This document shows, one piece after another, positions 14,641 to 60,705 of a DNA stretch of 64,000 nt (the first letter of the stretch is position 1; each line of letters begins with the position of its first letter). Below the pieces are notes generated by a model. That model was not told the origin of the DNA. It saw nothing but the letters and a program-made list of their open reading frames with translations, and made no database searches. Source of the DNA: an uncultured Litoreibacter sp. (lineage in GTDB: Bacteria; Pseudomonadota; Alphaproteobacteria; Rhodobacterales; Rhodobacteraceae); NCBI RefSeq assembly GCF_947487515.1, contig NZ_CANKWO010000003.1, positions 637,103 to 701,102 of the forward strand, written 5' to 3'. A program made the position numbers and the translations under genes.

Positions 14641-17216
14641 TCTGCCACCATAGGGAGGCGGGCGCTGCTGAGAAGATTGGCCAACTCTGGCTTGCAAGAC
14701 CCGCAGTTGGTCCCCGCGCAGGTCGCGGCCCCCAATGCGTCGATGCCGTCGGCCCCTGATGCAATGGCCCCGTGGATTGTGTTGATCCCGACGTTCATGC
14801 AGGCGCAAACAATAGGGCCGGGGTCGGGTTGATCAATATCACCACGCCCCGCGAGGGCACGGAGCGATGGGGTTTGAGTGCCAATAAGCGATATCGCTTG
14901 AGTGCGCGCCAAAGTGACCGGAGTAGGGCCTGCGAAGAACAATCCCTTTAGCAGTTCGCCATCGTGAAAGGCGATGCGGGTTTGCCCGCTTCGGCGGTCG
15001 CACATTTCTGAGGCAACCCCTAGGTCCCCTCCTAGCAATCCCCGCGCCAATCCTTCCCAATCTTGAGGATGCGAAAGACCTGCGTACTCTGCTTGCCAGC
15101 CTGTCAGCGACCGCGCGATCGCGGAATAGCTGGCCGTTGCTTGGGGTTTGTCGAGCACCGCCGCGAAAGCAAACCACTGGGCGGGGTATTTGCGCAGCGC
15201 CACCTGAGCGATCTTGGTTGCAGGTTGACCTGAAACAGGGTCGACGGCGGGGGGAATTACCGCATTTACCCAGCTGGCACTGCTGTGCTGCCGCGTCCAG
15301 TGAATGGGGGCGAACAACTGGCCTTTCGCAGTGCGTTCGGTGATCAACGCGCGAAGAATTGACGCGCCGTGGGGGCTGCTCACTTCAAGCAGGTCTCCGG
15401 TGCCGACCTTCAATTGATCTGCGTCTTGGGGATGAATTTCCGCATAGGGTTCTGCCAGATGCGCCCCCAGTTTCGGAGCCTTCCCGCTGCGTGACATCGT
15501 GTGCCATTGGTCACGATTGCGCCCAGTGTTGAGCGTAAAGGCGGTGCGTTCCACAGGTGTGGGGTCCTGAATCGGCAGCATGCGTGCCTTGCCATCAGAG
15601 TGGTAGAAATCGCCATCAGCAAAGAAACGTTTGCCCTCCTGCGGCCATTGGGTGGGGATCAAATTTGCGTAATCCACATCGGCAAAGATGCTCAAATCCA
15701 GATCCCGTCCGAAATCAGAGGTGGCGGACGACAGGGCAACATACTCGGCGAATATCTGTGCTGGGGTCTCAAAGTTGAAGGCTTTGGACCAGCCCATGCG
15801 CGATGCCACGTCACATATTATTTTCCAGTCGGGGCGCGTATCTTTAGGGGCAGGGAGGAACGCGCGTTGGCGCGAGATGCGGCGCTCTGAGTTGGTGACA
15901 GTGCCGTCCTTCTCTCCCCAGCCAGTGGCGGGCAAAAGCACATCGGCAAGATCGCCGGTATCGGTCTGGGCCATGATGTCAGACACGGCCACAAAGGGCA
16001 CGTTTGAGATAGCCCTTGCCACTTGGTCCGCATCTGGCAAGCTGACGGCAGGGTTGGTCGACATGACCCAAAGGGCTTTGATTTTTCCAGATGCGCAGGC
16101 GTCGAACAGATCGACAGCCTTCAACCCAGCAGCGGTTGGGATATTTGGGCTGGCCCAAAACTTTTGAACACAGTCGCGGTGTTCGGCGTTCTCGATGTCC
16201 AGATGATTGGCGAGCATATTGGCAAGGCCGCCCACTTCACGCCCGCCCATGGCATTGGGCTGACCGGTAACCGAAAACGGCCCACATCCGCGTTGCCCAA
16301 TTCGCCCTGTGGCGAGGTGGCAATTCAAAATCGAATTGACCTTATCGGTGCCGCATCCAGACTGGTTCACCCCTTGCGAATAGACGGTAACGACCTTTTT
16401 GGTCTCCGCCCAAAGCTGGTAGAAATGCGCAAGCTCGCTGGCGGACAAGCCACTTTGCAACGGATCGCTCAGGTTGGCCTGTGCAATGGCCTCTGGGCTG
16501 CCCGAAACATGAGCTTGGAGAAAGTCAGCATCGGTTTTCCCCGTTGCGACCAGATGGGCCAACAGCCCGTTAAACAATGGGATGTCGCCGTCGGGCAGGA
16601 TCCTCAAATGGTGGTCCGCGATCGCGGATGTAGCGGTTTTGCGTGGATCAACATTGACGACCGTAAGCGACGGACGGGCACTCTTCGCCGCTTCAATCCG
16701 TTGATGAAGCACGGGGTGGCACCACGCCAAGTTGGAACCCACCAGAACGATCAAGTCGGCCTCTTCCAAGTCCTCATAGGTGCCCGGGACGGTGTCCGAC
16801 CCAAAGGCGCGCTTGTGCCCTGCTACCGATGAGGCCATGCAAAGTCTTGAATTCGTGTCAATATTTGCCGATCCAATGAAACCTTTCATCAGTTTATTCG
16901 CGACGTAGTAATCTTCGGTAAGCAGTTGGCCCGAGACATAGAACGCCACGCTATCTGGGCCATGATCACGGATCGCAGCGCTAAATTTTTCTGCCACCCT
17001 ATCCAAAGCAGCATCCCATGTGGCCTCTGCCCCGTTTACCTGAGGAGCAAGAAGGCGACCTTCAAGGTCGATGGTGTCCCCCAGTGCCGTGCCTTTGGAG
17101 CACAGCCTGCCAAAGTTGGCCGGATGGTCAGGGTCGCCTTTAATGGTGCCATCTGGGCCCGCAAGAATGCCGCAACCAACCCCGCAATAGGGGCACACGG
17201 TTTTGGTCAAAGTCAT
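14637..17216 (-). CDS. nasA: Assimilatory nitrate reductase catalytic subunit
   Basis: The 859-residue molybdopterin oxidoreductase has an N-terminal [4Fe-4S] motif (Cys8, Cys11, Cys15, Cys39 in CPYCGVGC...RLCSKG), the bis-MGD domains, and a C-terminal BFD-like [2Fe-2S] domain (VCACMNVG...CAGTNCGSCKPEL). This length and the extra cluster match NasA. It reduces nitrate to nitrite in the cytoplasm. No separate NasC-type diaphorase is nearby, so the electron donor is unclear. The start overlaps the nirD stop by ATGA. Confidence 0.95.
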   Translation of the reverse strand: MTLTKTVCPYCGVGCGILAGPDGTIKGDPDHPANFGRLCSKGTALGDTIDLEGRLLAPQVNGAEATWDAALDRVAEKFSAAIRDHGPDSVAFYVSGQLLTEDYYVANKLMKGFIGSANIDTNSRLCMASSVAGHKRAFGSDTVPGTYEDLEEADLIVLVGSNLAWCHPVLHQRIEAAKSARPSLTVVNVDPRKTATSAIADHHLRILPDGDIPLFNGLLAHLVATGKTDADFLQAHVSGSPEAIAQANLSDPLQSGLSASELAHFYQLWAETKKVVTVYSQGVNQSGCGTDKVNSILNCHLATGRIGQRGCGPFSVTGQPNAMGGREVGGLANMLANHLDIENAEHRDCVQKFWASPNIPTAAGLKAVDLFDACASGKIKALWVMSTNPAVSLPDADQVARAISNVPFVAVSDIMAQTDTGDLADVLLPATGWGEKDGTVTNSERRISRQRAFLPAPKDTRPDWKIICDVASRMGWSKAFNFETPAQIFAEYVALSSATSDFGRDLDLSIFADVDYANLIPTQWPQEGKRFFADGDFYHSDGKARMLPIQDPTPVERTAFTLNTGRNRDQWHTMSRSGKAPKLGAHLAEPYAEIHPQDADQLKVGTGDLLEVSSPHGASILRALITERTAKGQLFAPIHWTRQHSSASWVNAVIPPAVDPVSGQPATKIAQVALRKYPAQWFAFAAVLDKPQATASYSAIARSLTGWQAEYAGLSHPQDWEGLARGLLGGDLGVASEMCDRRSGQTRIAFHDGELLKGLFFAGPTPVTLARTQAISLIGTQTPSLRALAGRGDIDQPDPGPIVCACMNVGINTIHGAIASGADGIDALGAATCAGTNCGSCKPELANLLSSARLPMVAE

Positions 17217-17548
17217 GCGACCGCCCTGTGTTGCAAAAACTCGGTGTCCAGATAGATGCGCCCGTCTGTGACCTTTGCGCGGTAGGTCGCGACTTGCCCT
17301 TCATCTGCGCCTTGGGCCATGCCTGTCTCCAGTGAGATGACCCAATTGTGCAGCGGGCAAGTCACCTGTGTGCCGTGCACGATACCGTCAGCCAAAGGGC
17401 CGCCTTTGTGGGGGCAGGCATTGTCCAAGGCGTAAACCTCATCCGTGGCGGTGCGGAAAACCGCCACGCACCCGAGGGGGGTTTTTACCAAGCGCGCGCC
17501 GCGTTGCGGGATGGCATCAAGGGCGGATATTTCGATCCATTGGCTCAT
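17213..17548 (-). CDS. nirD: Nitrite reductase small subunit (Rieske-like)
   Basis: The 111-residue protein matches NirD: a Rieske-type fold with CPHKGGPL and CPLHNW, so here the Cys-His pairs of a true [2Fe-2S] Rieske site appear to be present. It partners NirB in NAD(P)H-dependent nitrite reduction to ammonium. ATG 17548 overlaps the nirB stop (ATGA); the longer frame to 17617 lies in nirB and is rejected. Confidence 0.92.
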   Translation of the reverse strand: MSQWIEISALDAIPQRGARLVKTPLGCVAVFRTATDEVYALDNACPHKGGPLADGIVHGTQVTCPLHNWVISLETGMAQGADEGQVATYRAKVTDGRIYLDTEFLQHRAVA

Positions 17549-19974
17549 TCCGCGGCCTCCAAGGCTAAGTCTGTAAGGGGGTGGTAGGCGTCGTCTTTGG
17601 CGACATGCTGTGCCCATGGGTCTTTGCGATAGACTGTTTGGGACAGGTCAAATCGTGCGGCAAGGGCAGCACGGGTGTCGCGATCGTTGATCTGCTCTTG
17701 AATCCATTCAAGTCCGACCTTCGCCATCCACTTGTAGATGCGGTCAAGATATTTGGCGTTCTCTCGGTAGGACTGAGTGACGGCCTTGACGACCTCTATC
17801 ACGTCCTCTTCTGTGGGGACCTGACACAAGGGCTGTGTTTCGCGCACATCCATGCCCGCGGCCCCGCCGATGCTGATTTGAAAGCCGCTGTCGACACAAA
17901 CGATGCCAATGTCTTTGCAGGTCGCCTCGGCGCAGTTTCGGGGGCATCCAGAGACAGCCAGTTTCAACTTGTGAGGCGTCCACGAGCCCCAGAGTATTTT
18001 CTCCAGCTTGATCCCCAAACCGGTGCTGTCTTGTGTGCCAAACCGGCAATGATCTGTACCGACGCAGGTTTTCACCGTACGCAGACCTTTGGAATACGCA
18101 TGCCCCGAGACCATGCCAGCCTTGTTCAGGTCGCTCCAGATTTCTGGAAGATCTTCGCCTTTGACGCCCAACAGGTCGATGCGTTGTCCGCCGGTCACCT
18201 TCACCGTTGGCACCTCGAATTTGTCGGCGGCATCGGCAATCGCACGAAGTTCGTCTGGGGTGGTAATCCCGCCCCACATTCGCGGCACGACGCTAAAGGT
18301 GCCGTCTTTTTGGATATTGGCATGTTTACGTTCGTTGACGAAACGCGATTGCGGATCATCAAGGTAGTCCAGCGGCCAGTCCGACAACAGATAGTAGTTC
18401 AATGCAGGGCGGCAAATGTGACAACCGCAAGATGTCTTCCACCCGCATTCCTGCCATACAGCGGGCATTGATTTCAGGCTTTGGCTCTTGATCATGCGCC
18501 GCACGTCTTCATGGGTCATGTCGGTGCAGCCGCAGATGGAAGCAGCGGCAGGGACAACAAAGTCATCCCCCAAGGTGACAGCCAGCACTTGTTCCACCAA
18601 TCCGGTGCAGGTGCCGCAGGACGCGGAGGCCTTGGTTGTGGATTTGATCGCGTTTAGGTCGGATGCTCCGGCGGCGATGGCGTCCTCAATTTGCCCTTTG
18701 CAAATGCCGTTGCAGCCACAAATCTCCGCATCACGCGGTAAGGCTGCAACGGCTAAGAGCGGGTCCGAAGGGGTTCCCCCTTGGAACGCAGGTCCGAAAA
18801 TCAACGTGTCGCGCATGTCCGTGATGTCGACCTTGTCGCGGATTAATCCGAAGAACCAGTTGCTGTCTGCGGTGTCGCCATACATCACCACCCCGATCAC
18901 CTGATTGTTGGCAATGACCAAGCGCCGGTAAACCCCGCGGGCAGGGTCGCGAAACACGATGTCTTCACGGCCCTCACCTTCTGCGAAGTCGCCAGCGCTG
19001 AACAGATCGCAGCCGGTTACTTTCAGCTTGGTGGATAGTTCCTTTTGGACGAACTGGGCCTCTTGTCCCATCAAAGTCGACGCCGCGACCTTGGCTTGGT
19101 CATACAGCGGTGCCACAAGGCCGAAAATCGCGCCGTTGTGCTCGACACATTCTCCGACCGCCAGAATATCCGCGTCCGAGGTCACCATGTGATCGTCCAC
19201 ATGTATGCCCCTTCCCACCGCCAGATCAGAGTCTGCTGCGAGCGCCACATTGGGGCGGATGCCCACGGCCATAACCAGCAAATCGCAGGGCAATTCGGTT
19301 CCGTCGTCCAGCCGCAAGGCTTTGACATGCCCGTCTTCGCCAAGAATTTCAGAGGAGTTGGCCGAGCATTTGACCGTGATGCCTTTGTCTACAAGCGCCT
19401 TGCGCAGCAGGTAGCCTGCGGCTTCATCCAACTGCCTTTCCATCAAGTGCCCCATGATATGGACAACGGTCACATCGACGCCGCGTGCAGCCATTCCCGC
19501 GGCCGCCTCCAGCCCCAGCAGGCCGCCCCCGATGACCACACATTTGTTATCGGGTCCCAGACCCATCATGCGTTCAGTGTCCTCCAAGTCGCGATAGGCG
19601 ATAACACCTTCTAACTCGTGACCGGGCAGTGGGATCATAAACGGGTTGGATCCCGTTCCAAGCAGCAGTTTGTCGTAAAACAAAACCTCGCCATTTTCTG
19701 CGGTGATACTCCGCTCGGCGCGATTGATCGAGGTGACCTTTTCGCCGAAGCGACAGGTGACGTTGTTGTCACTATACCACTGGGCGGTATGGGTTTCGAT
19801 GTCGTCGTAGGTCTTTTCGCCCGCGAGGACAGGGGACAACATGATGCGGTTGTAGTTGCCGCGGGGTTCCGCGTTGAACAGCGTGACGTTGACGTCTGCG
19901 TTGTTGTCTAAAAGATGTTCCAATGCGCGGCCTGTGGCCATGCCTGCGCCGATGATAATCAGATTCTGGGTCAT
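17545..19974 (-). CDS. nirB: NAD(P)H-dependent nitrite reductase large subunit
   Basis: The 809-residue flavoprotein has an N-terminal FAD/NAD-binding region (IIGAGMATGRALEHL; VVIGGGLLGLEAA), two BFD-like [2Fe-2S] segments (ICGCNGICKGQ and ICGCTDMTHEDV), and a C-terminal siroheme/[4Fe-4S] domain with CVGTDHCRFG and SGCPRNCAE. It reduces nitrite to ammonium. It overlaps the nrtCD stop by TAATG and the nirD start by ATGA. The siroheme is supplied by the pathway of the downstream cysG. Confidence 0.96.
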   Translation of the reverse strand: MTQNLIIIGAGMATGRALEHLLDNNADVNVTLFNAEPRGNYNRIMLSPVLAGEKTYDDIETHTAQWYSDNNVTCRFGEKVTSINRAERSITAENGEVLFYDKLLLGTGSNPFMIPLPGHELEGVIAYRDLEDTERMMGLGPDNKCVVIGGGLLGLEAAAGMAARGVDVTVVHIMGHLMERQLDEAAGYLLRKALVDKGITVKCSANSSEILGEDGHVKALRLDDGTELPCDLLVMAVGIRPNVALAADSDLAVGRGIHVDDHMVTSDADILAVGECVEHNGAIFGLVAPLYDQAKVAASTLMGQEAQFVQKELSTKLKVTGCDLFSAGDFAEGEGREDIVFRDPARGVYRRLVIANNQVIGVVMYGDTADSNWFFGLIRDKVDITDMRDTLIFGPAFQGGTPSDPLLAVAALPRDAEICGCNGICKGQIEDAIAAGASDLNAIKSTTKASASCGTCTGLVEQVLAVTLGDDFVVPAAASICGCTDMTHEDVRRMIKSQSLKSMPAVWQECGWKTSCGCHICRPALNYYLLSDWPLDYLDDPQSRFVNERKHANIQKDGTFSVVPRMWGGITTPDELRAIADAADKFEVPTVKVTGGQRIDLLGVKGEDLPEIWSDLNKAGMVSGHAYSKGLRTVKTCVGTDHCRFGTQDSTGLGIKLEKILWGSWTPHKLKLAVSGCPRNCAEATCKDIGIVCVDSGFQISIGGAAGMDVRETQPLCQVPTEEDVIEVVKAVTQSYRENAKYLDRIYKWMAKVGLEWIQEQINDRDTRAALAARFDLSQTVYRKDPWAQHVAKDDAYHPLTDLALEAAE

Positions 19975-21647
19975 TATTCTGCCGCCAGTGCTGGTTTGGG
20001 TTTAGGTTTCGCGCCGTGCTCATATTCCTCAAGGAAATCGAGAACTTCTGCGCGGTAATTGTAGTAATCCGGATGCTCGAGCAGTGCTTTGCGCGTGCGA
20101 GGACGCGGGAGATTTACATCCGTGATCTTGCCGATTGTGGCCTGCGGCCCATTGGTCATCATCACCACGCGGTCGGCCAGCAAGATCGCTTCGTCAACGT
20201 CATGGGTGACACAAACGGCGGTGACTTTGGTGCGCGACCAAACCTCCATCAGAACCTCTTGCAGTTCCCAACGGGTCAGGCTGTCGAGCATGCCGAAGGG
20301 TTCATCCAGTAGCAACAGCTTGGGCGACAGGGCGAAGGCGCGGGCGATACCAACCCGCTGCTTCATGCCGTTGGACATGCTGGAGGCCTGCTTGTCCATG
20401 CTGTCGGCCAACCCGACGCGTTCAAGGTAGTACTCGATGACGTCTTGGCGCTCGGATTGCGACGCGCGTGGGTAGACTTTATCGACCCCAATGGCGACGT
20501 TTTCCTTGGCCGATAACCAAGGGAACAGGTTGGGCGATTGAAACACCACCGCGCGCTCTGGGTCGGCGCCTTCGACGTTCCAGCCATCAAGGCGAATTGC
20601 CCCTTTGGAAATTGGGTTGAGGCCCGCGGCCATGGTCAGAACCGTGGATTTCCCGCAGCCCGAATGGCCAATCAGGCTGATGAATTCGCCTTTGTTCACC
20701 TTCAGATTGAAGTCCTCCACAACCGTAAGCGGGCCTTTGGGGGTCGGGTAAACTTTATGCAGTTTGGAAAACACAAGGTAGCGGTCCTCGATCCCCCCTT
20801 TTTGGGCCTCTTTGACAGCTGCTGGCACCGAATGGATCGGCGTCACATCTGGAAGAACACGCGTGTCCCCAGTCTTCGCGGCAATGCCAACATCCATCAG
20901 GTATTTTGTCACCTGTGCCCGCAGCGTTTTGAAGCCTTCGTCGTCATTCATCGCCCCACGATCTCTGGGGCGCGGCAGGTTTACCTCAACGGGATCAGCC
21001 AAGGTGCCATCAGGGTTCAACGGGATGATCCGGTCCGCCAGCAAGATGGCTTCATCCACGTCATTGGTGATCAGCAAGCAGGTCTTCCGCTCTGTCTCCC
21101 AAATATCAAGGATTTCATCTGCGAGATTGGCACGGGTTAACGCATCCAGAGCACTCAGCGGCTCGTCCAGCAGCAAAACTTCGGGGGTCATGGCCAATGC
21201 GCGCGCCACCGAGACCCGCTGACGCATGCCACCGGACAGCTCTGACGGGCGACGGGAGATCGCATGCGACAGCCCAACCATGCCGACATAGTGGTCGATT
21301 TTTGCCTGCCGCTCTTCGCGAGACAACTTTGGGAAGACCGCGTCCACAGCCAGCCCGACATTTCCGCCCACTGTCAGCCACGGCATCAAAGAATAGCTTT
21401 GAAACACCAATCCGCGTTCCGGACCGGGGCCGGTGATCGGGGCCCCTTTGAAGCTGACCTTGCCGGCGTCGGGCATCTCTAGCCCTGCGATCAAATTCAT
21501 CAGGGTCGATTTCCCCGTGCCCGAGAAGCCCAAGATCGCGATGAATTCCCCATCTTTGATCTCTAGGTTCACATCCTTCAGGACATCGATGCGATTGGTG
21601 CCTTGCCCGAAGGATTTCGAGACGTTTTCGAGTTTCAGAATGCTCAT
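19974..21647 (-). CDS. Nitrate ABC transporter, two fused ATP-binding domains
   Basis: The 557-residue protein carries two complete nucleotide-binding domains. NBD1 (about 1-255) has GFSGTGKST, LSGGMRQRVSVARAL and LLLDEPLSALD. NBD2 (about 280-540) has GHSGCGKST, a slightly altered signature MSNGMKQRVGIARAF, and LLLDEPFGMLD. Both resemble NrtD/NrtC-type domains, but unlike cyanobacterial NrtC there is no fused substrate-binding domain. With NrtB and NrtA it makes a nitrate importer. An NrtCD-type label is apt. Confidence 0.9.
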   Translation of the reverse strand: MSILKLENVSKSFGQGTNRIDVLKDVNLEIKDGEFIAILGFSGTGKSTLMNLIAGLEMPDAGKVSFKGAPITGPGPERGLVFQSYSLMPWLTVGGNVGLAVDAVFPKLSREERQAKIDHYVGMVGLSHAISRRPSELSGGMRQRVSVARALAMTPEVLLLDEPLSALDALTRANLADEILDIWETERKTCLLITNDVDEAILLADRIIPLNPDGTLADPVEVNLPRPRDRGAMNDDEGFKTLRAQVTKYLMDVGIAAKTGDTRVLPDVTPIHSVPAAVKEAQKGGIEDRYLVFSKLHKVYPTPKGPLTVVEDFNLKVNKGEFISLIGHSGCGKSTVLTMAAGLNPISKGAIRLDGWNVEGADPERAVVFQSPNLFPWLSAKENVAIGVDKVYPRASQSERQDVIEYYLERVGLADSMDKQASSMSNGMKQRVGIARAFALSPKLLLLDEPFGMLDSLTRWELQEVLMEVWSRTKVTAVCVTHDVDEAILLADRVVMMTNGPQATIGKITDVNLPRPRTRKALLEHPDYYNYRAEVLDFLEEYEHGAKPKPKPALAAE

Positions 21648-21653
21648 GCGGGC

Positions 21654-22727
21654 CTACCGGTTTTCTGTGAAGGTGAACATGGACTGAAGGGCAAACATCA
21701 CCCGATCCAAAAGGAAGCCGATAATCCCGATGGTGAAGACCGCAACCATGATCTTTGCCAAGGATTGAGAAGAGCCGTTTTGGAATTCATCCCAAACAAA
21801 CTTCCCCAACCCTGGGTTTTGCGCCAGCATTTCGGCGGCGATCAGCACCATCCAGCCGACCCCAAGGGACAGGCGCAGACCGGTGAAAATCAAAGGCAAT
21901 GCAGACGGCAGCACAAGCTTGGTGATTTTGGCATATGTGCTCATTTTCAGCACCTTCGACACGCTGACCAGATCGCGATCAATCGAGGAAACCCCAAGGG
22001 CGGTGTTTATCAAGGTAGGCCACAAAGAGCACAGGGTGACCGTGATGGCTGATACCAAAAATGACTTGGAAAACATGCCGTCATTGGTGGCATAGGCCGC
22101 CGATACGATCATTGTCACAATGGGAAGCCACGCCAGCGGGCTGACGGGTTTGAATATTTGAATGATGGGGTTGATGGCGGCGTTTGCAGTCGGGGACAGC
22201 CCCGCCATAATCCCCAAGGGAATGGCAACGAGGGAGCCGATCAAGAAGCCAAAGAACACCGTTTTGATAGATGTCCAAATCTGTTGGTAATAGGTTGGTT
22301 TTCCTGTGTAGACACGGCTGCGAATGTCGTCTTCGCGCCCCTGTGCGATCAACTTGGCGTTGCGGGCGTCCTGACGTTCGTAGAAGGCGGCTTCCTTGCC
22401 CCGTTCGCGGACGGCGTCGGCGTTTAGATTGACGGCTTGTTCCCACACTTGCACGGGGCCGGGGATGGCGCCAAGCGATGTGTGAACTGTCGGAGCCAAG
22501 GTGGCCCATGCCGTGATGAACACTACGATGGCCAACAAGGGCACGCCCAATAGGCGCCAGATCTCCGACATTTGCCCGCGCGGATTGTCCCCTGCGGCCG
22601 CTTTCAGGATCGGCGTCAGCCACGCAACTCCGAACACCTGAAACCAGGCATCTGCTTTGTTAATTCGCGTGAAGCGTCTGGCGCGACGAGCTTCTTGCTC
22701 GATGCTGTCTGGATCAATGGCGGTCAT
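21654..22727 (-). CDS. nrtB: Nitrate ABC transporter permease
   Basis: The 357-residue membrane protein has the BPD_transp_1 permease region with the coupling-loop sequence LGVGWMVLIAAEML (EAA-like) near residue 300. Its N-terminal extension, including a segment of about 60 charged residues (residues 105-150), is longer than in cyanobacterial NrtB but common in proteobacterial ones. It is 6 bp upstream of nrtCD and 77 bp downstream of nrtA. Confidence 0.9.
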   Translation of the reverse strand: MTAIDPDSIEQEARRARRFTRINKADAWFQVFGVAWLTPILKAAAGDNPRGQMSEIWRLLGVPLLAIVVFITAWATLAPTVHTSLGAIPGPVQVWEQAVNLNADAVRERGKEAAFYERQDARNAKLIAQGREDDIRSRVYTGKPTYYQQIWTSIKTVFFGFLIGSLVAIPLGIMAGLSPTANAAINPIIQIFKPVSPLAWLPIVTMIVSAAYATNDGMFSKSFLVSAITVTLCSLWPTLINTALGVSSIDRDLVSVSKVLKMSTYAKITKLVLPSALPLIFTGLRLSLGVGWMVLIAAEMLAQNPGLGKFVWDEFQNGSSQSLAKIMVAVFTIGIIGFLLDRVMFALQSMFTFTENR

Positions 22728-22765
22728 GTTGAAGCCTGTCTTAGAAGATGATGAAGGAGGAAGGC

Positions 22766-22796
22766 TCCACCGCGCGGTAACTCTGCGCGCGGTGGA
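22766..22796 (-). other. Intercistronic hairpin between nrtA and nrtB
   Basis: TCCACCGCGCG and CGCGCGGTGGA form a perfect 11-bp GC-rich stem around a 9-nt loop, without a T-run. Such structures after binding-protein genes often stabilise upstream mRNA, giving more binding protein than permease. That role is inferred. Confidence 0.6.
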
Positions 22797-22804
22797 AGAA
22801 GCGT

Positions 22805-24172
22805 TTAGTTCTGGATGTTGGACCCTGCGATGACCTGATCGCCTTTGAGCCCGATCGGCAGGCTCTCTAGATAGGCGTTCGGAGTGCGCCCGTCGTAGCC
22901 GATACCGTCGATGACATCTGCTGCAGGGGTCGGGGCTTTGAACCCGTCGCTATCCCATGGGAAATCAGCTTCATTTGCCAATTCCTCGTCGACCAGCAAG
23001 CGGGCCGCTTGCAAGTAGATATCGGGGCGGTAGACGGATTGCGCCGTTTCAACGAACCATTCGTCGCTTTTGGGTTCAGCGATTTGCCCCCAACGGCGCA
23101 TCTGGGACAAGTACCAGATCGCATCGGAATAGAACGGGTAGGTCGCGTTGTATCTGAAGAATACGTTGAAGTCGGGGACGTCGCGCACATCGCCTTTTTC
23201 ATATTCGAAAGTGCCGGTCATAGAGTTGGCGATGACATCCGCATCGGCCCCAACATATTCCGAACGCGCAAGGATTTCGACGGCTTCTTCACGGTTGGCG
23301 TTATTGTTCTCATCCAGCCAGATCGCAGCGCGGATCAAGGCTTTGGTCAAAGCAATGGTGGTGTTGGGGTTTTCTTTGGTGAACTCCGCGGACAGGCCGA
23401 AGACCTTTTCGGGGTTGTTGCGCCATAGTTCATAATCGGTGATGACTGGCACGCCGATCCCTTTGAAAACGGCTTGTTGGTTCCAAGGCTCACCGACGCT
23501 GTAGCCGAAGATTGTGCCTGCCTCCATGGTGGAAGGCATTTGCGGGGGCGGGGTTACGCTGAGGAAAACATCTGCCCCGATTTGCCCGCTCACATCTTCC
23601 GGAGAGTAGTATCCAGGTTCAATACCACCTGCCGCCAACCAGTACCGCAACTCGTAGTTGTGCGTGGAGACCGGAAACACCATTCCCATGTTGAACGGAA
23701 CGCCTTGGTCCTTGTATTCTTCTACCACCGGAGCAAGAGACGCCGCTGAAATTGGGTGTTGGGGGCGTCCGTCTTCCATCAACGGGACATGGGGGCGCAT
23801 TTGCTCCCAAATATCGTTGGAAACGGTGATCCCGTTGCCATTCAGGTCCATCGAAAACGGGGTTACGATATGGGCCTTCGTGCCGTAGCCAATGGTCGCG
23901 GCGAGCGGCTGGCCCGCCAACATATGCGCGCCATCCAGTTGGCCATCGATGACGCCATCCAGCAGAACTTTCCAATTGGCCTGCGCTTCAAGCCGAACGA
24001 ATAGGCCCTCGTCTTCAAAGTACCCGTTTTCATAGGCGACAGCCAAAGGGGCCATGTCAGTGAGCTTGATGAAGCCGAAGGTCAGTTCATCTTTCTCGAG
24101 ATCCAGCATTTCGGCCATGGCTGGGCTGGTGCAAAGAATAGACGAAGCAAGTAGCCATTTGAGTGTGTTCAT
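22805..24172 (-). CDS. nrtA: Nitrate-binding periplasmic protein
   Basis: The 455-residue protein starts at ATG 24172 with a Sec-type signal peptide ([20 protein letters not shown]). The rest matches the NrtA/NasF family: [23 protein letters not shown] at the start of the mature part and [19 protein letters not shown] near the middle. The frame extending to 24544 runs through the ANTAR leader and is rejected. It captures nitrate for NrtB and NrtCD. Expression is predicted to depend on antitermination by NasT in its leader. Confidence 0.93.
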
Positions 24173-24194
24173 TTTTTGAGTCCCTGTGGAAATG

Positions 24195-24249
24195 CAAAAA
24201 GCCGCACGATTGACGCACGCGGGAGGAGGTGCATGCACAATCGAGCGGC
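24195..24249 (-). terminator. Intrinsic terminator in the nrtA leader
   Basis: In the RNA, GCCGCTCGATTG (24238-24249) pairs with CAATCGTGCGGC (24201-24212) with one mismatch, followed at once by UUUUUG (24195-24200). The ATG of nrtA lies 23 bp further on. Formation of antiterminator P2 removes GCCGCUC from this stem. Confidence 0.9.
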
Positions 24250-24286
24250 GTTGCTCATAAATTCGGTAGCCAACGGCGTTGTTGGC
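24195..24286 (-). promoter_or_regulatory. ANTAR two-hairpin antiterminator leader of nrtA
   Basis: In the minus-strand RNA, hairpin P1 is GCCAAC-AACGCC-GTTGGC (24269-24286) and hairpin P2 is GAGC-AACGCC-GCTC (24243-24256). Both loops are hexamers with A at position 1 and G at position 4, the known ANTAR signature. P2 shares bases with the 5' arm of the following terminator, so the two structures exclude each other. The ANTAR protein NasT, encoded just upstream, is the obvious binder. Confidence 0.92.
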
Positions 24287-24515
24287 CGGAACAGGCATCG
24301 TTGCCTTGAAGTTAATTCTGGCCTGTTTCTTAAGCGAAGGCGACGCAGGGGGCAGCTTTTTGCGCCGCAATGCAGCAATTGATGATTTTTTTGGCATTCT
24401 TTGGGCGTGGAAGCCGAAAAAACTGCCCCAAAGAAGCCGGATCATCCGAAGAATCGGACAGGCGTTGAAGCTGAAGGAATCGTCGATAGGGGGATCGTTT
24501 GCGGTTAGGGCAGTA

Positions 24516-25100
24516 TCACTGCAAGAGATCGGCGGTGGAGACAATGGCGGTTGCTACGTCAATCACTTTGCGCCCTTGATCCATCGCGGTTTTCCGCAGC
24601 AGGTTATAGGCCTCTTGCTCCGAAACCTGACGTGCAGAGATAAGCACGCCTTTTGCGCGATCGATAGTTTTACGGTCGATCAGGGCCTGCTTGGCTGCGT
24701 CCAACTCTGTTTGCATCTTGTCGATCACTGAAAAGCGGATGATCGCGGTTTCCAGCACAGATTTGACCCGATCCGCCTGCATTCCGTTGACCACATAAGC
24801 GCTCAGGCCTGCAAAAATCGCGGCCTGCGTTCGTGCCGCGTCAGTTTGCTCTACAAACACAGCAACCGGTCGCTGATGCGCGCCGGACATCTTCCCAATC
24901 TGTTTCAACATATCACAATCGGGATTGGAGAGGTGAATGAGAATGGCATCAGGGTCTTGCAGCGCCAGTGTTTGCTCCAGCGAGGCCAAAGACGACAAGA
25001 GAGTTACAGTGCCCCAGGCGTCATGCTCCAAGGCGTCACTGATTTCGCGAGCAACGGGCGCAGCGGGGTCAACCACCAGTATGTTCAGATTGCGGTGCAC
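24516..25100 (-). CDS. nasT: ANTAR-domain antitermination regulator NasT
   Basis: The 194-residue protein has an N-terminal pseudo-receiver domain ([14 protein letters not shown]...) and a C-terminal ANTAR RNA-binding domain ([35 protein letters not shown]), the order seen in NasT. It begins at GTG 25100, the first start after an in-frame TAG. It should bind the two-hairpin leader of nrtA and prevent termination. In studied species NasT is held inactive by NasS, a nitrate-binding NrtA homologue; no nasS is adjacent here. Confidence 0.92.
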
Positions 25101-29327: not shown

Positions 29328-32300
29328 CTATAGATCGATCTCCACCACGCCGTTTTCGTCGCGCGCGCGCGACTGGCACAAGATAATAGTCTTGGTGCGG
29401 TCCGCATTCGAGAGCACGAAGTCGCGGTGCTCTACCTCGCCAGACACGAGCCCGCATTTGCAAACACCGCACAATCCGTCAGAGCATTTGACGTCCACAT
29501 GTATGCCCGCCCGCAGCAACGCGTCCGTGGGGGCTTCGTCCTTGCTGACGGCAATATCGCGACCAGATTTGGCCAACCTGAGGGTAAAGTCGTGGTTCAC
29601 GTAGTCAGGTTGCTCTGGCACTGAAAAAAATTCCAGATGACGGGCGTCCTCGGGGAAGCCATTGGCCTGTGCGGCATCCATGACCGCGGCCATGTAGACC
29701 TCTGGCCCGCAGGTGTAGGCATGGACATTTTCGCGGTACTTCAAGGTCGCGGCAAGATCACAGCGCGTGCCCTCGTCCGAGAAATGGTAATGAACTTTGT
29801 CAGCCCATGGCATGGTTGGTAGATCCTTCAAGAACCCAGCTCCCGCCTTGGACGAGCAGGAGTAATGCAGCGCGAAGTCCCGCCCCAAAGCATGCAGTTG
29901 ATGAGCCATAGCAATCATTGGAGTAACCCCAATGCCCCCGCCCATAAGATAGCTGAAGGAGGCGTCTTGATGCAAAGGGAAGTGGTTGATCGGCTTGGAT
30001 ATATGAACGCGCCGTCCTTTCTCAAATATCCGATGCATCAACTTGGATCCGCCACGCCCTTGGTCCTCGCGCAGGACTGCGATCTGATATTTGCTGCGAT
30101 CAGCCGGATCGCCGGACAGCGAATATTGGCGTAAGAACTCCGGGGCCACGACCACGTCGATATGGGCCCCCGCCTCAACCGGAGGCATGTCCGAGCCATC
30201 GGGCATGGAGAATTCGTATTTGGTCACCCCTTCGGACATTTGGTCCACATGCGAGATTACGGCCCCCATGACGGGGCTTTCGGTTTGATCCGCAGTATAG
30301 ATGTGTTCAGGCGCAACTCCCTTGGCGCGTCGCGCTTTATGCGCCTCTGCCGGTATCATCGCTTCATAGGCTGCAATGCCGGCCTCGCGGTCCATCGGAT
30401 AGGGGTAGGCATAGGGCGGCGGGGCCAATGGGGCAGGGTAGACCGCCAGTGTTTGGTCTTCGAACTTGAGGTCCAAGTCCTTTTGCAACCCACGGGCATT
30501 CACCGGATGCGCAGAAGGGCGGTAGGCCCCGTCGTCGACCATCTCCAAATCCCACCACCATTTTTTGACGGGGTTAATTTCGCCCTTTCCGGCCATGTCG
30601 TCCAGCTTGGCCAACGCCTTCGCGGCCTGCGGCACGGTCATGGCCAGCTTGCGAAAGGGGGCTTCGGCAAACAGGCCTTCCAAGTTCCAAGGGCAGGTTT
30701 TCATGCAGCGCCCACACATCGCGCCGTTCTTTTGGCTAACGCGGTAGGTCGTGCATTTCTGGCTGTCGGACTTCCATATCTCATAGCCGTTGAACATGAG
30801 CTTCGGCCCTGCGGTGATCGCCCCTGAAGGGCATTCACGGGCGCATTTGTTGCAGGCATCGCAGAATTTTTGCAGGCCGAAGTCGATAGGCTTGTCGTGG
30901 GTCATCGGCATATTGGTTGTGACAACGCCGGATTTCAGACGCGGGCCGAGGAAGGGGTTCAAGATCACTTCGCCGATCCGAGATACCTCCCCCAAGCCCG
31001 AGAGCAACAAAAGCGGCGGGTGCAGAACCTCGTCGTCCATGACCGAATGCACGCGAGCGGTGTAGCCAAGGTTGCGAATATGCTGTGCCAAAACCCCGCC
31101 CAACAGCGAAAACCGAAGATAGGCCCGCATAGATTGGGCGCAGGCGATCCAGTCGTCGCCGGATGCCCCTTCCATAGTTTCATGACCTTGGTCGATGATC
31201 ATGGAAATGGCGTTAGAGTGATAGGGGGTGATGGGCTGCCCCGCAGCGTCATGGCTGTAGTAGGCCCAATCGGGACAGGCGCTGAGCCCTGCGGCATCAA
31301 CGCCAAGCCAGTAAAGCGCCGCCTTTATGTTCGCTGCATTGCGGTCGGGATCACGGGTGCTGCTATGCACCGCCGAGGCATCGCCGTCTTGCAATAGCAC
31401 GAAGGCCCCAAGGGATGGGCGAAAGGCATATGCGGCTGCGGATTTACGGACGTAATTACCGTTTTTGGTGGCATCTTGAACTGATTTTCCCATGTCACCG
31501 AACAGGCCGCGCGCAAACAGATTGGCCCGCTTGGGCACCCGCGCCACATTGGGCGTGTCGATGTAGGTGGTCGGGCTGTCGACGCGATTTAGGGTCTCAA
31601 AGGGGTGCGGGCCGTCGACAAAGCGACGCTGGGCATAGGCATCGCGGGTGCGGGCTGTCTTGGCTTGTTTACCCAGCCCCAACCGCCATTCGCGTCCGGG
31701 CTTGGCCGTGCGGGCCAATGGCCTGTCAGAAGCCATCGCTAAGGTGGTCGTCACCACAGCCAACCCGTACCGGTCCCCGACAAATGGGTTCTTGCCTGTC
31801 TCATGGTTGATCCCCGCCGCCACAGCCAGCTTGCCCATGTGAACATCACTTGCTGCCATAGAATGCGCGCGGGCGTCATAGCCAAGGGTCCGAATATAAG
31901 AGGCAAGGGTCACTGCCGTCTCCATCCCGCGCAAACAGGCGCGCTGGTCTTGGGCTCCCTTTATCCAATCGCTGCCCTCTTCGCCGGCCTCCGGATCACG
32001 GGGCATGTCGTAAAGGAACACCAAGGCATGGGTGTGGTGATCGCAGGCCTTTGGCGGGGCTCGCATACTTTCGCGCAGGCCTGCCATGATGACGTCAATA
32101 CCGGCCGCCAGCGTTTTGGGCTGCAAGGTCCGTATCTTTTCCGCCAACCGGTCTACGTCGGGGTTACTCATCGGGGCGTCGAGCCATGCTTCGCGCGGAA
32201 TTGCACAGGTCCCCACCATGGAGGCATCACAGTAGTAGCCAAAGGCTTTCAGATGATGTGTGCGCTCTGACAGGCTCGTAGGGATTTCGGCGATTTCCTT

Positions 32301-32510
32301 TTTGACCATCCCCTCTCGGGTCGCATCCAGCATCGCCTGATAGTCCTGCATGGCGTTCACGATGCTCATTGGGTCATCGGCGCGGCGAAAACTGGTTTGC
32401 CGCATATCTGGCACTTGATCCAAACAGAGATGATCTGCCCGAGCCAGCTTTTCCAATGGGTAGGGACCCAAGTGCATCGGGCGATCCCGATAGGAGAAAA
32501 ATTTTGTCAT
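29328..32510 (-). CDS. Reductive dehalogenase fused to an FMN/[2Fe-2S] reductase (self-sufficient, BhbA/NpRdhA-like)
   Basis: The 1060-residue protein has two parts. Residues about 1-660 are RdhA-like, with two ferredoxin-type [4Fe-4S] motifs: Cys550, 553, 556, 560 and Cys586, 599, 602, 606. Residues about 740-1060 are a phthalate-dioxygenase-reductase-type module: FMN/NAD domain (RQYSLSGDP, GGGIGVTPMIA, CGPEVYM) and a C-terminal [2Fe-2S] ferredoxin (Cys1009, 1014, 1017, 1045). There is no Tat signal and no rdhB anchor, unlike respiratory RdhA. The same layout is known in BhbA and NpRdhA, cobalamin enzymes that debrominate or dechlorinate phenolic acids. A degenerate copy of the cobalamin-binding half (about 140-275 versus 380-545) is visible. 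The substrate here is unknown; a marine bromophenol is a guess. Confidence 0.9.
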   Translation of the reverse strand: MTKFFSYRDRPMHLGPYPLEKLARADHLCLDQVPDMRQTSFRRADDPMSIVNAMQDYQAMLDATREGMVKKEIAEIPTSLSERTHHLKAFGYYCDASMVGTCAIPREAWLDAPMSNPDVDRLAEKIRTLQPKTLAAGIDVIMAGLRESMRAPPKACDHHTHALVFLYDMPRDPEAGEEGSDWIKGAQDQRACLRGMETAVTLASYIRTLGYDARAHSMAASDVHMGKLAVAAGINHETGKNPFVGDRYGLAVVTTTLAMASDRPLARTAKPGREWRLGLGKQAKTARTRDAYAQRRFVDGPHPFETLNRVDSPTTYIDTPNVARVPKRANLFARGLFGDMGKSVQDATKNGNYVRKSAAAYAFRPSLGAFVLLQDGDASAVHSSTRDPDRNAANIKAALYWLGVDAAGLSACPDWAYYSHDAAGQPITPYHSNAISMIIDQGHETMEGASGDDWIACAQSMRAYLRFSLLGGVLAQHIRNLGYTARVHSVMDDEVLHPPLLLLSGLGEVSRIGEVILNPFLGPRLKSGVVTTNMPMTHDKPIDFGLQKFCDACNKCARECPSGAITAGPKLMFNGYEIWKSDSQKCTTYRVSQKNGAMCGRCMKTCPWNLEGLFAEAPFRKLAMTVPQAAKALAKLDDMAGKGEINPVKKWWWDLEMVDDGAYRPSAHPVNARGLQKDLDLKFEDQTLAVYPAPLAPPPYAYPYPMDREAGIAAYEAMIPAEAHKARRAKGVAPEHIYTADQTESPVMGAVISHVDQMSEGVTKYEFSMPDGSDMPPVEAGAHIDVVVAPEFLRQYSLSGDPADRSKYQIAVLREDQGRGGSKLMHRIFEKGRRVHISKPINHFPLHQDASFSYLMGGGIGVTPMIAMAHQLHALGRDFALHYSCSSKAGAGFLKDLPTMPWADKVHYHFSDEGTRCDLAATLKYRENVHAYTCGPEVYMAAVMDAAQANGFPEDARHLEFFSVPEQPDYVNHDFTLRLAKSGRDIAVSKDEAPTDALLRAGIHVDVKCSDGLCGVCKCGLVSGEVEHRDFVLSNADRTKTIILCQSRARDENGVVEIDL

Positions 32511-32623: not shown

Positions 32624-33346
32624 ATGACAGGGCAGATCAAAGGCTTGCTGTTCGACAAGGACGGCACATTGCTAGATTTCGACGCGACATGGGGGCAATG
32701 GGCCACCCGATTTTTGTCAGATCTGGCACAAGGCGATACGAAGCTTTTCGCACGACTGTCCGATGCCGTCGGCTTTCAACCCGAGAGCACCAGCTTTCAT
32801 CCCCACAGCCCAGTGATTGCTGGGACTGCGGATGTCGCAATCGATCTTTTGCACCCTTTGGTGCCGCATTGGGACTGGCAAGAGCTGATGAACCACGCCA
32901 ATGAAATGGCCTTGAACGCCGATTTGACCCCCCCGTGCCCGCTGCCTGACCTGTTCGACCGCTTTGACGCCATGGGGCTTGTATTGGGGGTGGCGACAAA
33001 TGACACCGAAAGTGCTGCGCATATGCATATGCGTAAATTGGGAGTGGAAGGCCGTTTCGCCCGCATATTGGGGTTCGATTCAGGGTTTGGGGGGAAACCT
33101 GCGCCCGAAATGCTGTGGGCCTTCTCTAATCAGTGCGGGCTTGCTCCGAATGAGGTGGCGATGATCGGCGACAGCACGCATGATCTTCATGCTGGGCGCA
33201 ATGCGGGGATGATATGCGTGGGCGTGCTGACGGGCCCTGCGACCCGAGCTGATCTGGAACCTCATGCGGATGTGGTTTTGCAAAGCGTGGCAGATATTCC
33301 AGATTGGTTGGCGACAGGACCGCTTTACTCCAAAAACGACCCATGA
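32624..33346 (+). CDS. HAD-superfamily phosphatase (phosphoglycolate phosphatase-like)
   Basis: The 240-residue protein has all HAD motifs: LLFDKDGTLLDF (motif I), ATNDTES (motif II), the lysine in GFGGKPAPEM, and MIGDSTHDLHAGRNAG (motif IV). The helical cap places it with the Gph/PGP type. ATG 32624 is chosen; the longer frame from 32369 reads through the divergent dehalogenase gene. It is divergent from that gene with 113 bp between. The substrate is not evident. Confidence 0.9.
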   Translation: MTGQIKGLLFDKDGTLLDFDATWGQWATRFLSDLAQGDTKLFARLSDAVGFQPESTSFHPHSPVIAGTADVAIDLLHPLVPHWDWQELMNHANEMALNADLTPPCPLPDLFDRFDAMGLVLGVATNDTESAAHMHMRKLGVEGRFARILGFDSGFGGKPAPEMLWAFSNQCGLAPNEVAMIGDSTHDLHAGRNAGMICVGVLTGPATRADLEPHADVVLQSVADIPDWLATGPLYSKNDP

Positions 33347-35008: not shown

Positions 35009-35055
35009 AACGATTTTGCTTCAGATGTGTCTTCAGAACTTTGAAGGGGCATCAC

Positions 35056-35658
35056 ATGTACGGTTTGGTCCATCGCGCGTTGCAATGCTTTGCGCAGGAT
35101 ATCTATGGGGAAGATATCTGGGAAAAAGTTGTGGTCGAAGCGGAGCTACCGTTCCATGAGTATGAAGCGATGTTGCCCTATCCGGATCATCATCTGGATG
35201 ATGCTTTAACCTCCCTTTCCAACTTGTTGGAACGTTCGCCGGCACAAGTCGCGGAAGATGTTGGAACCTATCTGGTGACCCATGAACGTATGGAAACCGT
35301 GCGGCGGCTTTTGCGGTTTGGGGGCACAACTTATGTGGAGTTCATTCTTTCCCTCGAAGACGTTCATGATCGCGTTAAACTTGCTTTGCCTGATCTGGAA
35401 CTCCCTCGGTTTGAGGTGGAAGTTCATTCAGAAACCTCTTTCAGCGTTGTGTTGGATTGGTCGCGGCAGGGATTCGGTGAAGTTCTATTGGGCGTCTTGC
35501 GGGCGATGGCGGATGACTATGGAACATTGGTCATGCTGGAGGTGGGGCGCTCCTTCCGCAGCGGTGAAGTGCTAGAGGTTGTGAAGGTGGAATTGTTTGA
35601 AGTCGATTTCACCACAGGGCGCGAATTTGGTCTGATTGCTGGGGGCACAGCATCATGA
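35056..35658 (+). CDS. H-NOX heme-NO/O2-binding domain protein
   Basis: The 200-residue protein is a stand-alone H-NOX (MYGLVHRALQCFAQDIYG start; proximal His104 in EDVHDRVKLALPDLELPRF). It should sense NO and act on the HNOBA-GGDEF partner whose start overlaps its stop (ATGA). By hand alignment the usual heme-anchoring YxSxR motif is degenerate, DWSRQ at residues 134-138. ATG 35056 has GAAGGGG upstream, preferred over TTG 35041. Family assignment is firm; heme binding is not proven. Confidence 0.9.
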   Translation: MYGLVHRALQCFAQDIYGEDIWEKVVVEAELPFHEYEAMLPYPDHHLDDALTSLSNLLERSPAQVAEDVGTYLVTHERMETVRRLLRFGGTTYVEFILSLEDVHDRVKLALPDLELPRFEVEVHSETSFSVVLDWSRQGFGEVLLGVLRAMADDYGTLVMLEVGRSFRSGEVLEVVKVELFEVDFTTGREFGLIAGGTAS

Positions 35659-36776
35659 GACGTGAACAACCCACCGAACCAAGCACTCGCTACATTCCCT
35701 TTGATGAGGATGTGTTGGGAACACTGATGCCAATGCATTTGCACATCTCCCCGACGGGTCACATCCTATCGGTGGGCCCGACCTTGGCGAAGTTGAAGCC
35801 CGATCAAAGCCTGATTGGTCAGCGCTTCCTTGAAGTGTTTGAAGTCAAGAGACCCCTGAACATCGACAGCTTTGGTGACCTTCTTGAACACGAAGGATGT
35901 GTTATTAGAACGCGGTTTCGTCAAGGGGATAGGCTGGGGATGAAGGGGCTATTTGTCCCCCTGACACAGCAATCCGTAATGCTGCCTGATCGCCGAGAAG
36001 AAGGGGGCTCAGCACCGGTTTTGCGACCTTTGCTGCGCGATCATCCAGGCAGTGTTCGCGGCGCGACACGAGGTGCTTTGATCAACCTCTCGCTTGGGGT
36101 CAATGTGGTAGAAGCCGTGCAACGGTACAAGCTTAGTAGCGCGGATTTTGCGCCGGCAGATCCCACGGTAGATATGTTGTATCTGATTGAGGCAAAGTCA
36201 GTCGCTCTTGAAGAGTCCAAACGCCTGAACATGCGATTAGAAGGTGCGCGCGATGAAGCTGAAGCACAGGCCTACACCGACACGCTGACAAATTTGCAAA
36301 ACCGCCGCAGCATGGATGCCATGTTGTATCAATTGCTGCGCTCTGATCAGCCGTTTGGATTGATGCATTTGGACTTGGACTACTTCAAGCAAGTGAACGA
36401 TACCTTCGGTCATGCGGCCGGCGATCATGTTCTCAGACATGTTGCCGGCGTTCTGCAAGATGAGACGCGCGTTGGCGATTTAGTGGCGCGGGTCGGTGGT
36501 GACGAATTTGTTCTGATCATCAGGGGATGTGTCGATCTTTCCGTATTAGGCGGGATCGCTTGGCGCATCATCTCGCGACTGGAGGAGCCCATAACCTACG
36601 GTGATGATCTGTGTCAAATTTCAGCCAGTATCGGAACGACTCTCTCTAGTTTTTATGATCGCCCCGTGGCGGATCAGATGCTCAATGATGCAGATCGCGC
36701 TTTGTATTCATCGAAAGATCAGGGGCGGGCGCGCCACACAGTCTTTGATCCAAAACAGTTTTCCGCGCTGGGTTAG
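35655..36776 (+). CDS. HNOBA-GGDEF protein, probable diguanylate cyclase coupled to H-NOX
   Basis: The 373-residue protein has an N-terminal HNOBA (H-NOX-associated, PAS-like) region of about 1-170 (DVLGTLMPMHLHISPTGHILSVGPT), a coiled coil of about 185-215, and a GGDEF domain (about 215-370) with intact ARVGGDEF and an RVGD I-site five residues upstream. It should make cyclic-di-GMP, with product inhibition, under control of the overlapping H-NOX gene. No EAL domain is present. This linkage is known in several proteobacteria to tie NO to biofilm decisions. Confidence 0.9.
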   Translation: MRREQPTEPSTRYIPFDEDVLGTLMPMHLHISPTGHILSVGPTLAKLKPDQSLIGQRFLEVFEVKRPLNIDSFGDLLEHEGCVIRTRFRQGDRLGMKGLFVPLTQQSVMLPDRREEGGSAPVLRPLLRDHPGSVRGATRGALINLSLGVNVVEAVQRYKLSSADFAPADPTVDMLYLIEAKSVALEESKRLNMRLEGARDEAEAQAYTDTLTNLQNRRSMDAMLYQLLRSDQPFGLMHLDLDYFKQVNDTFGHAAGDHVLRHVAGVLQDETRVGDLVARVGGDEFVLIIRGCVDLSVLGGIAWRIISRLEEPITYGDDLCQISASIGTTLSSFYDRPVADQMLNDADRALYSSKDQGRARHTVFDPKQFSALG

Positions 36777-45328: not shown

Positions 45329-46096
45329 ATGATCGACGTAAACAAAATATCATTTCTGGCATCTGAGACGGATGTCGCCTGCGAAGCGCGCGCGGCCTTG
45401 ATCGAGCGGTATGGCGACACGCCATTGGAAGACGCCGAAGTGATCGTGGCGTTGGGCGGCGACGGGTTCATGCTGCAAACTCTGCATAGCACGCAGCATC
45501 TTGATACGCCTGTATACGGGATGAATTGCGGAACCGTTGGGTTTATGATGAACGAGTATCAAGAACCCAACTTGCGCGCACGGTTGTCCGAAGCCGTGGA
45601 GGAAGACGTAAACCCCCTGCGCATGAAAGCGATCCGCGAAGACGGCACAGTCCATGAGGCCTTGGCCATCAACGAGGTGTCGCTACTGCGTGCAGGGTCG
45701 CAAGCGGCCAAGCTTCGCATCTTTGTAGATGGGCGCGAACGGTTGGAAGAACTTGTGTGTGATGGGGCGTTGGTGTCGACGCCTGCTGGTTCCACCGCAT
45801 ACAACTACTCGGCTCACGGGCCGATATTGCCCATCGGCTCCGAGGTGCTGGCATTGACGGCGATGTCTGCGTTCCGGCCGCGAAGATGGCGAGGGGCCTT
45901 GCTTCCCACGGCGGCAAAGGTGCGGTTTGACGTGTTGCAACCGAAGAAGCGCCCTGTCATGGCGGACGCGGATGGTCGGTCTGCGGGCAATGTTGTCTCG
46001 GTGGAAATCACCTCCGAGCCGAATGTCATACACCGAATTCTGTTCGATCCGGGCCACGGGCTGGAGGAACGCTTGATCCGCGAGCAATTTGCCTAA
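45329..46096 (+). CDS. nadK: NAD kinase
   Basis: The 255-residue protein has the ATP-NAD kinase motifs: [16 protein letters not shown] and [14 protein letters not shown] with the [11 protein letters not shown] stretch. The frame extends to 45233, but ATG 45329 gives the usual length and start ([12 protein letters not shown]). It is divergent from glyA and its stop overlaps the convergent VOC-cupin gene. Confidence 0.9.
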
Positions 46097-60570: not shown

Positions 60571-60705
60571 GTGGTAAGGCTTTTAAAAGCTCTGATTTTT
60601 CTAATCGTGATAGGTGTTATCGGCATAATCGGCTATGCGTATCTGGGCGATCTTAGCCCAAGCCGAGTCGAAGTGAATCAACCGGTTACTTTGGATGCGA
60701 ATTAG
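60571..60705 (+). CDS. 44-residue single-helix membrane protein
   Basis: GTG 60571 opens a short frame coding LLKALIFLIVIGVIGIIGYAY followed by GDLSPSRVEVNQPVTLDAN, i.e. one membrane helix and a periplasmic or cytoplasmic tail of about 20 residues. The pattern is familiar to me from small hypothetical proteins of Rhodobacterales, which supports it being real. Its stop overlaps the next gene by 11 bp. It is divergent from aroK. Confidence 0.7.
   Translation: MVRLLKALIFLIVIGVIGIIGYAYLGDLSPSRVEVNQPVTLDAN

Follow-up and report, generated by a model that had tools for sequence, protein, structure and literature searches.

A reductive dehalogenase fused to its own reductase in a Litoreibacter genome, with marine ortho-bromo- and iodophenols as likely substrates

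Reductive dehalogenases of the RdhA type form four subfamilies, and most of the catabolic ones are fusions with a phthalate dioxygenase reductase (PDOR) part (PMC10463259). According to that report, one such fusion, JtRdhA of the marine bacterium Jhaorihella thermophila, is driven by NADPH, tolerates oxygen, and debrominates and deiodinates ortho-halophenols, the chlorophenols tested not being attacked; its rate on 3-bromo-4-hydroxyphenylacetate reaches 99.3% of its best, and with its help E. coli W can grow on a bromophenol. The RdhA tree presented there includes members from Ruegeria pomeroyi and Tropicibacter. In a second report (PMC13101508), Ros_A3X954 of Roseobacter sp. MED193, from the same bacterial group as the organism studied here, is a debrominase that lacks a twin-arginine translocation (Tat) signal, acts on 2,6-dibromophenol and is highly oxygen-sensitive; because its printed Fe-S positions are residues 283-345, it is probably a short reductive dehalogenase and not a fusion with a duplicated core. 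The same source describes bhbA homologues as widespread in the Roseobacter clade. Here we analysed a stretch of 64,000 nucleotides from an uncultured Litoreibacter sp. (contig NZ_CANKWO010000003.1, positions 637,103 to 701,102; hereafter the window), in which a gene on the minus strand at 29328-32510 encodes a self-sufficient RdhA-PDOR fusion of 1060 residues with an ATG start, its coordinates, strand and length being as an initial annotation of this DNA had given them. In view of the published JtRdhA, the Roseobacter debrominase and the bhbA homologues, the find is another representative of a known enzyme type, one that is frequent among relatives of the host.

The family and architecture of the protein are settled. 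The NCBIfam reductive dehalogenase model TIGR02486 scored 198.3 bits (cut-off 160.35), and the best phmmer match among PDB sequences was NpRdhA of Nitratireductor pacificus (4ras; E 4.9e-164, query residues 3-105 and 156-733), which together exclude chance similarity; the predicted start also agrees with the N-terminus of 4ras. Residues ~752-1055 matched self-sufficient P450s and phthalate dioxygenase reductase (2pia, E 9.2e-53). Pfam [4Fe-4S] and Fer2 domains were found over cut-off, and the flavin domain PF00970 below it (12.8 versus 21.1 bits). The combination proposed in the initial annotation, an RdhA-type part with two [4Fe-4S] motifs and a flavin/[2Fe-2S] reductase in one chain, was borne out by the motifs and by the matches to 4ras and 2pia.

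Conservation was assessed in 85 aligned relatives, a chosen sample made up of the 80 best genome loci and five full-length plasmid copies; all features of the gene given here are on the minus strand. The catalytic corrinoid core and Fe-S part (residues 366-609; 30684-31415) carries Ser460, Met461, Tyr464, Lys526 and Arg590, with Phe332 located before it. Its two [4Fe-4S] motifs (residues 550-606; 30693-30863), identified by Pfam, motif scan and alignment, are C550-x2-C553-x2-C556-x3-C560 and C586-x12-C599-x2-C602-x3-C606, and all eight cysteines are kept in 85/85 relatives. The PDOR-like part (~750-1060 plus stop; 29328-30263) comprises flavin/NAD(P) domains, with a flavin-type RxYS motif at residue 794 whose Tyr is replaced by Phe in 6/85 relatives, and a C-terminal [2Fe-2S] motif (C1009-x4-C1014-x2-C1017...C1045), the four cysteines of which are kept in 85, 84, 84 and 83 of the 85, the misses being gaps. 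Self-comparison and profile-profile comparison revealed a vestigial copy of the corrinoid core at residues ~65-265 (31716-32318): residues 158-265 are 36% identical to the protein's own core (E 1.6e-16), and the profile-profile comparison gave 99.4% for a degenerate core copy at residues 65-269. The alignment also defined a 40-residue insert relative to NpRdhA (residues 118-157; 32040-32159), where 39-40 residues are filled in every one of the relatives and none in NpRdhA.

As described in PMC10463259, JtRdhA resembles the window protein in having a duplicated corrinoid core, two [4Fe-4S] clusters and a PDOR part in the same order, no Tat signal, the same catalytic residues, and an insert relative to NpRdhA that is peculiar to RdhA-PDOR fusions; it too comes from a marine alphaproteobacterium. 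Its reported identity to NpRdhA is ~39%, against 43.2% (671 columns) for the window protein. BhbA, encoded on plasmid pBHB of Comamonas sp. 7D-2 (NC_021077.1, L085), aligns with the window protein from end to end (49.8% over 1056 columns) and has the same catalytic and Fe-S residues. NpRdhA (4ras, 6zxu) shares the corrinoid core, Fe-S motifs and catalytic residues and, according to its published description, the vestigial duplication; unlike the window protein, it has neither the fused reductase nor the 40-residue insert, and several pocket residues are changed. The layout therefore matches BhbA and JtRdhA and not NpRdhA, a truncated type without the reductase part, so that the initial annotation, which had likened it to BhbA and NpRdhA alike, held for the former and failed for the latter.

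For the active site, the numbering of NpRdhA was checked on the 4ras rows against residues named in PMC7565698 (Y426, K488, R552, S422, F290/F291, K307, F310/P311, A419, M423, N452), which describes the role of the catalytic and halophenol-binding residues. NpRdhA F291, S422, M423, Y426, K488 and R552 correspond to F332, S460, M461, Y464, K526 and R590 of the window protein, each invariant in 85/85 relatives. The catalytic Tyr, Lys and Arg of NpRdhA, whose retention the initial annotation had suggested checking, are thus kept as Tyr464, Lys526 and Arg590; its candidate for the tyrosine, Tyr417 or Tyr418, gives way to Tyr464 in the alignment. The family model, the matches to solved structures, these catalytic residues and the enzymology of JtRdhA (PMC10463259) all agree with the earlier proposal of a cytoplasmic, self-sufficient dehalogenase of the BhbA type. 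Judging from sequence, we put the probability at about 0.9 that the protein is a cytoplasmic RdhA-PDOR fusion reductive dehalogenase, with ortho-bromo- and iodophenols of marine origin as likely substrates. By analogy with JtRdhA, which acts on bromo- and iodophenols, reduction of an ortho-bromo- or iodophenol is very likely, and the marine brominated phenols named in the initial annotation appear to have been a good guess.

Several observations weigh against this reading. The Dehalogenase domain PF13486 had no match in the protein up to E 1, nor in the whole genome at E 0.001, the latter being a weak negative as the controls matched nowhere. The likeness to JtRdhA is one of published description. 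The pocket differs from that of NpRdhA at F290L, K307T, F310Y, P311V, M312R, A419C and N452V, and because of these differences the substrate of NpRdhA is not simply transferable to the window enzyme. In window numbering the aligned positions are L331 (F290), T348 (K307), Y353/V354 (F310/P311), C457 (A419) and V490 (N452), although NpRdhA 306-312 adjoins a two-residue gap and residue matching in that stretch is less sure. An AlphaFold2 model built from 28 alignment rows was weak at the active site (mean predicted local distance difference test score, pLDDT, 68.2; below 50 in stretches 490-524 and 545-614), and its overlay on NpRdhA was loose (template modelling score 0.46 by query length and 0.66 by target length, root-mean-square deviation ~9.5). 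In a Foldseek search with this model the 14 top matches were nevertheless all NpRdhA chains (best E 8.3e-44), followed by self-sufficient P450 and phthalate dioxygenase reductase. Because the model leaves the active site at low confidence, it was rejected as proof of the pocket, and the residue assignments rest on the alignment.

By analogy with JtRdhA and NpRdhA, NAD(P)H would reduce the flavin mononucleotide (FMN) of the C-terminal part, and electrons would pass from FMN to the [2Fe-2S] cluster, the two [4Fe-4S] clusters and base-off cobalamin. With an ortho-halogenated phenol bound by Ser460, Lys526 and Arg590, the halogen would then be met by reduced cobalt, and a proton may come from Tyr464 together with Lys526; halide and the dehalogenated phenol would be released. 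By the same analogy, bromine and iodine would be the preferred halogens. The family, the motifs, the conserved residues and the presence of cobN and cobQ in the host genome are seen directly, these last being the two cobalamin genes covered when the earlier suggestion to look for such genes was followed up. CobQ was over cut-off; since PF02514 cannot separate CobN from BchH, the PF02514 protein was rescanned with NCBIfam models and scored 1464 bits with TIGR02257 (cut-off 822) and 621 of 829 bits with the BchH model.

The initial annotation had raised the alternative that the closest relatives are corrinoid reductases acting on non-halogenated compounds. For an enzyme of this sort, QueG-like or other, a weak match to the QueG profile TIGR00276 could be cited. 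At 23.7 bits this match is far under the cut-off of 200, the window protein retains the halophenol-binding set of NpRdhA (S422, K488, R552, Y426), and NpRdhA is also its closest match among solved structures; we consider such an activity highly improbable.

A motif scan found no Tat-like RRxF[LIM] pattern in the protein, as the initial annotation had stated. Its further statement that rdhB is lacking holds at the locus: a znuB-like gene (PF00950; 28516-29304) converges on rdhA with a gap of 23 bp, and a divergent HAD gene has its inferred ATG (32624) 113 bp from the rdhA start. As these flanking genes are convergent or divergent and of other families, no rdhB shares an operon with rdhA, a genome-wide search for rdhB not having been made. 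The window gene therefore shows neither of the marks of respiratory (membrane) RdhA, a Tat signal and an adjacent RdhB partner.

Of 284 candidate stretches from a genome scan, 276 proved to be relatives (tblastn, E 1e-3), although in some the match may be confined to one part. Each of the best 80 spans query residues 3-1009 or more at 64-87% identity, and such fusions are thus not as few as had been supposed. A search for the same fusion among relatives, as proposed in the initial annotation, detected it by whole-genome search in 19 of 21 genomes of the genus, that of the host included (none in G005 and G020; the copy in G011 runs off its contig), and in 26 of the 37 genomes of the family searched. 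Among 24 genomes from other families no full-length fusion was found; relatives of the RdhA part occurred in G037 and G043. Coverage of the query reaches 80% or more in eight of 961 matching plasmid records, BhbA among them (49.6%); of the 40 records listed, the remaining 32 match in the reductase part alone. The same full-length fusion is plasmid-borne, with neighbours that differ from those of the window gene, in Ruegeria sp. TM1040 (L088) and Jannaschia sp. M317 (L089), both at 65% identity, Aminobacter sp. SS-2016 (L087; 58%) and Nitratireductor sp. OM-1 (L086; 49%). The loci nearest to the window gene, L001-L004 and L073, and a FastTree phylogeny that joins the window sequence to L. albidus (local support 99) most likely place the genome in or near Litoreibacter. 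The find lends weight to the idea that common marine Rhodobacteraceae routinely debrominate with an electron supply of their own and that the trait is not a pollutant-driven curiosity, which bears on the marine bromine cycle.

What purpose the enzyme serves can be approached through the aromatic capacity of the host. 4-Hydroxyphenylpyruvate dioxygenase, homogentisate dioxygenase and fumarylacetoacetase were all over cut-off and clustered on contig C1 of the host genome (G000) at ~481-487 kb, and a gene resembling flavin aromatic hydroxylases (NF006002) comes after them. Between the two dioxygenase genes lies a pair of adjacent regulators of MarR type (L093:5749-6648; HpaR model, under cut-off). 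In the host genome the best PobA score was far below cut-off (30.5 of 538.7 bits), and there was no match to the HpaB, intradiol dioxygenase or LigB families in searches that each matched their controls, which leaves homogentisate as the sole ring-cleavage outlet found among those tested. One possibility is that tyrosine-like phenols, such as 4-hydroxyphenylpyruvate derived from bromotyrosine, are debrominated and the product enters this pathway, and the near-maximal rate of JtRdhA on 3-bromo-4-hydroxyphenylacetate (PMC10463259) would fit. However, rdhA lies outside the homogentisate cluster, gentisate, catechol 2,3-dioxygenase and CoA routes were outside the search, and homogentisate dioxygenase is not significantly associated with the fusion in the family (23/26 genomes with it, 8/11 without; Fisher p 0.34). 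Moreover, it was not matched in G002 and G008, both 99% complete, which keep an 87%-identical fusion gene; there was no hmgA match in G019 either, in a genome just 57% complete. The homogentisate pathway as a necessary outlet is thus not supported: the route is possible in the host, it is not needed to keep the gene, and with two near-complete congeners of this kind the label 'catabolic' is unproven in the genus. We regard such a catabolic entry as rather unlikely.

Another possibility is that the enzyme is protective, detoxifying bromophenols from algae and marine animals without use of the product for growth. As the initial annotation had noted, rdhA stands alone, with no aromatic-degradation genes nearby: besides rdhA, none of 33 scanned window open reading frames (ORFs) was assigned to a ring-cleavage family (two had no match at all), and a cupin gene at 46093-47169, checked as a possible gentisate dioxygenase and left unassigned, gave no NCBIfam match at E 1e-5 and only Pfam Cupin and AraC-binding domains. 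Among relatives, 37 neighbour families recurred in four or more loci. Pfam scans of 20 representatives of recurrent families identified regulators, NUDIX, DUF983, a sigma factor, EamA, a nitroreductase, a sulfatase, a decarboxylase and others, and no ring-cleavage family (three had no Pfam match). By contrast, plasmid-borne bhbA adjoins protocatechuate 4,5-dioxygenase genes and the OM-1 copy is near pobA and extradiol/protocatechuate dioxygenase genes. The congeners that keep the gene without hmgA also favour protection, PobA and other outlets having been outside the search of those genomes. MarR-family regulators often sense phenols, and 42 of the 83 relatives whose flank is long enough have a same-strand MarR-family gene immediately upstream of rdhA (e.g. 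L006, L011, L025, L087; by tblastn 43 of 86 loci, the window being counted among the 86). Against this, no MarR regulator stands beside rdhA in the window or its five nearest loci, where local control has possibly been lost or relocated, and E. coli W supplied with JtRdhA is able to grow on a bromophenol (PMC10463259). Protection is a tentative reading, towards which we lean slightly over catabolism in this genus.

A more specific proposal, which we hold with somewhat less assurance than protection as such, is that in this genus the 'catabolic' dehalogenase may be a stand-alone, near-core protective debrominase against algal or animal bromophenols, retained even by congeners lacking the outlet for ring cleavage seen in the host, with a pocket (Cys457, Val490, Arg355, Tyr353) unlike that of BhbA. 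These residues occur in 74, 82, 82 and 79, respectively, of the 85 aligned relatives, Arg355 corresponding to NpRdhA M312, and the set is not shared by BhbA, which has S419, A452 and A312 (NpRdhA numbering) where the window protein has C, V and R. The genus offers a clean test of the enzyme's purpose, because close relatives differ in homogentisate dioxygenase and wider kin in the adjacent regulator.

Divergent from rdhA are a HAD-superfamily hydrolase gene (32624-33346, plus strand) and an MttB-family gene (PF06253; 33424-34980, plus strand), which tblastn found upstream of rdhA in 57/81 and 45/77 relatives with enough flank. G005 and G020, both without a fused rdhA match, retain close orthologues of the MttB gene (84 and 86%), and G008 has rdhA and no close MttB orthologue. 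As the two occur apart, a functional link of rdhA to the MttB and HAD genes was rejected, and we read the shared neighbourhood as synteny.

The nitrate-assimilation setting recognized earlier was evident at 14637-24544, with molybdopterin oxidoreductase, NirB-like and transporter genes. Elsewhere in the window, a ZnuA-like zinc-binding protein (PF01297; 26107-27216, minus strand) contains a repeated His/Asp/Glu-rich stretch, and an HNOB (haem-NO-binding) gene and, directly after it, a GGDEF gene that carries an HNOBA part (35041-36776, plus strand) are likely an NO-responsive cyclic di-GMP pair. A 525-residue ORF at 60695-62272 (plus strand) matched nothing in Pfam or NCBIfam at E 1e-5, and the ORF at 53575-55110 (minus strand) combines TPR repeats with a sulfotransferase domain.

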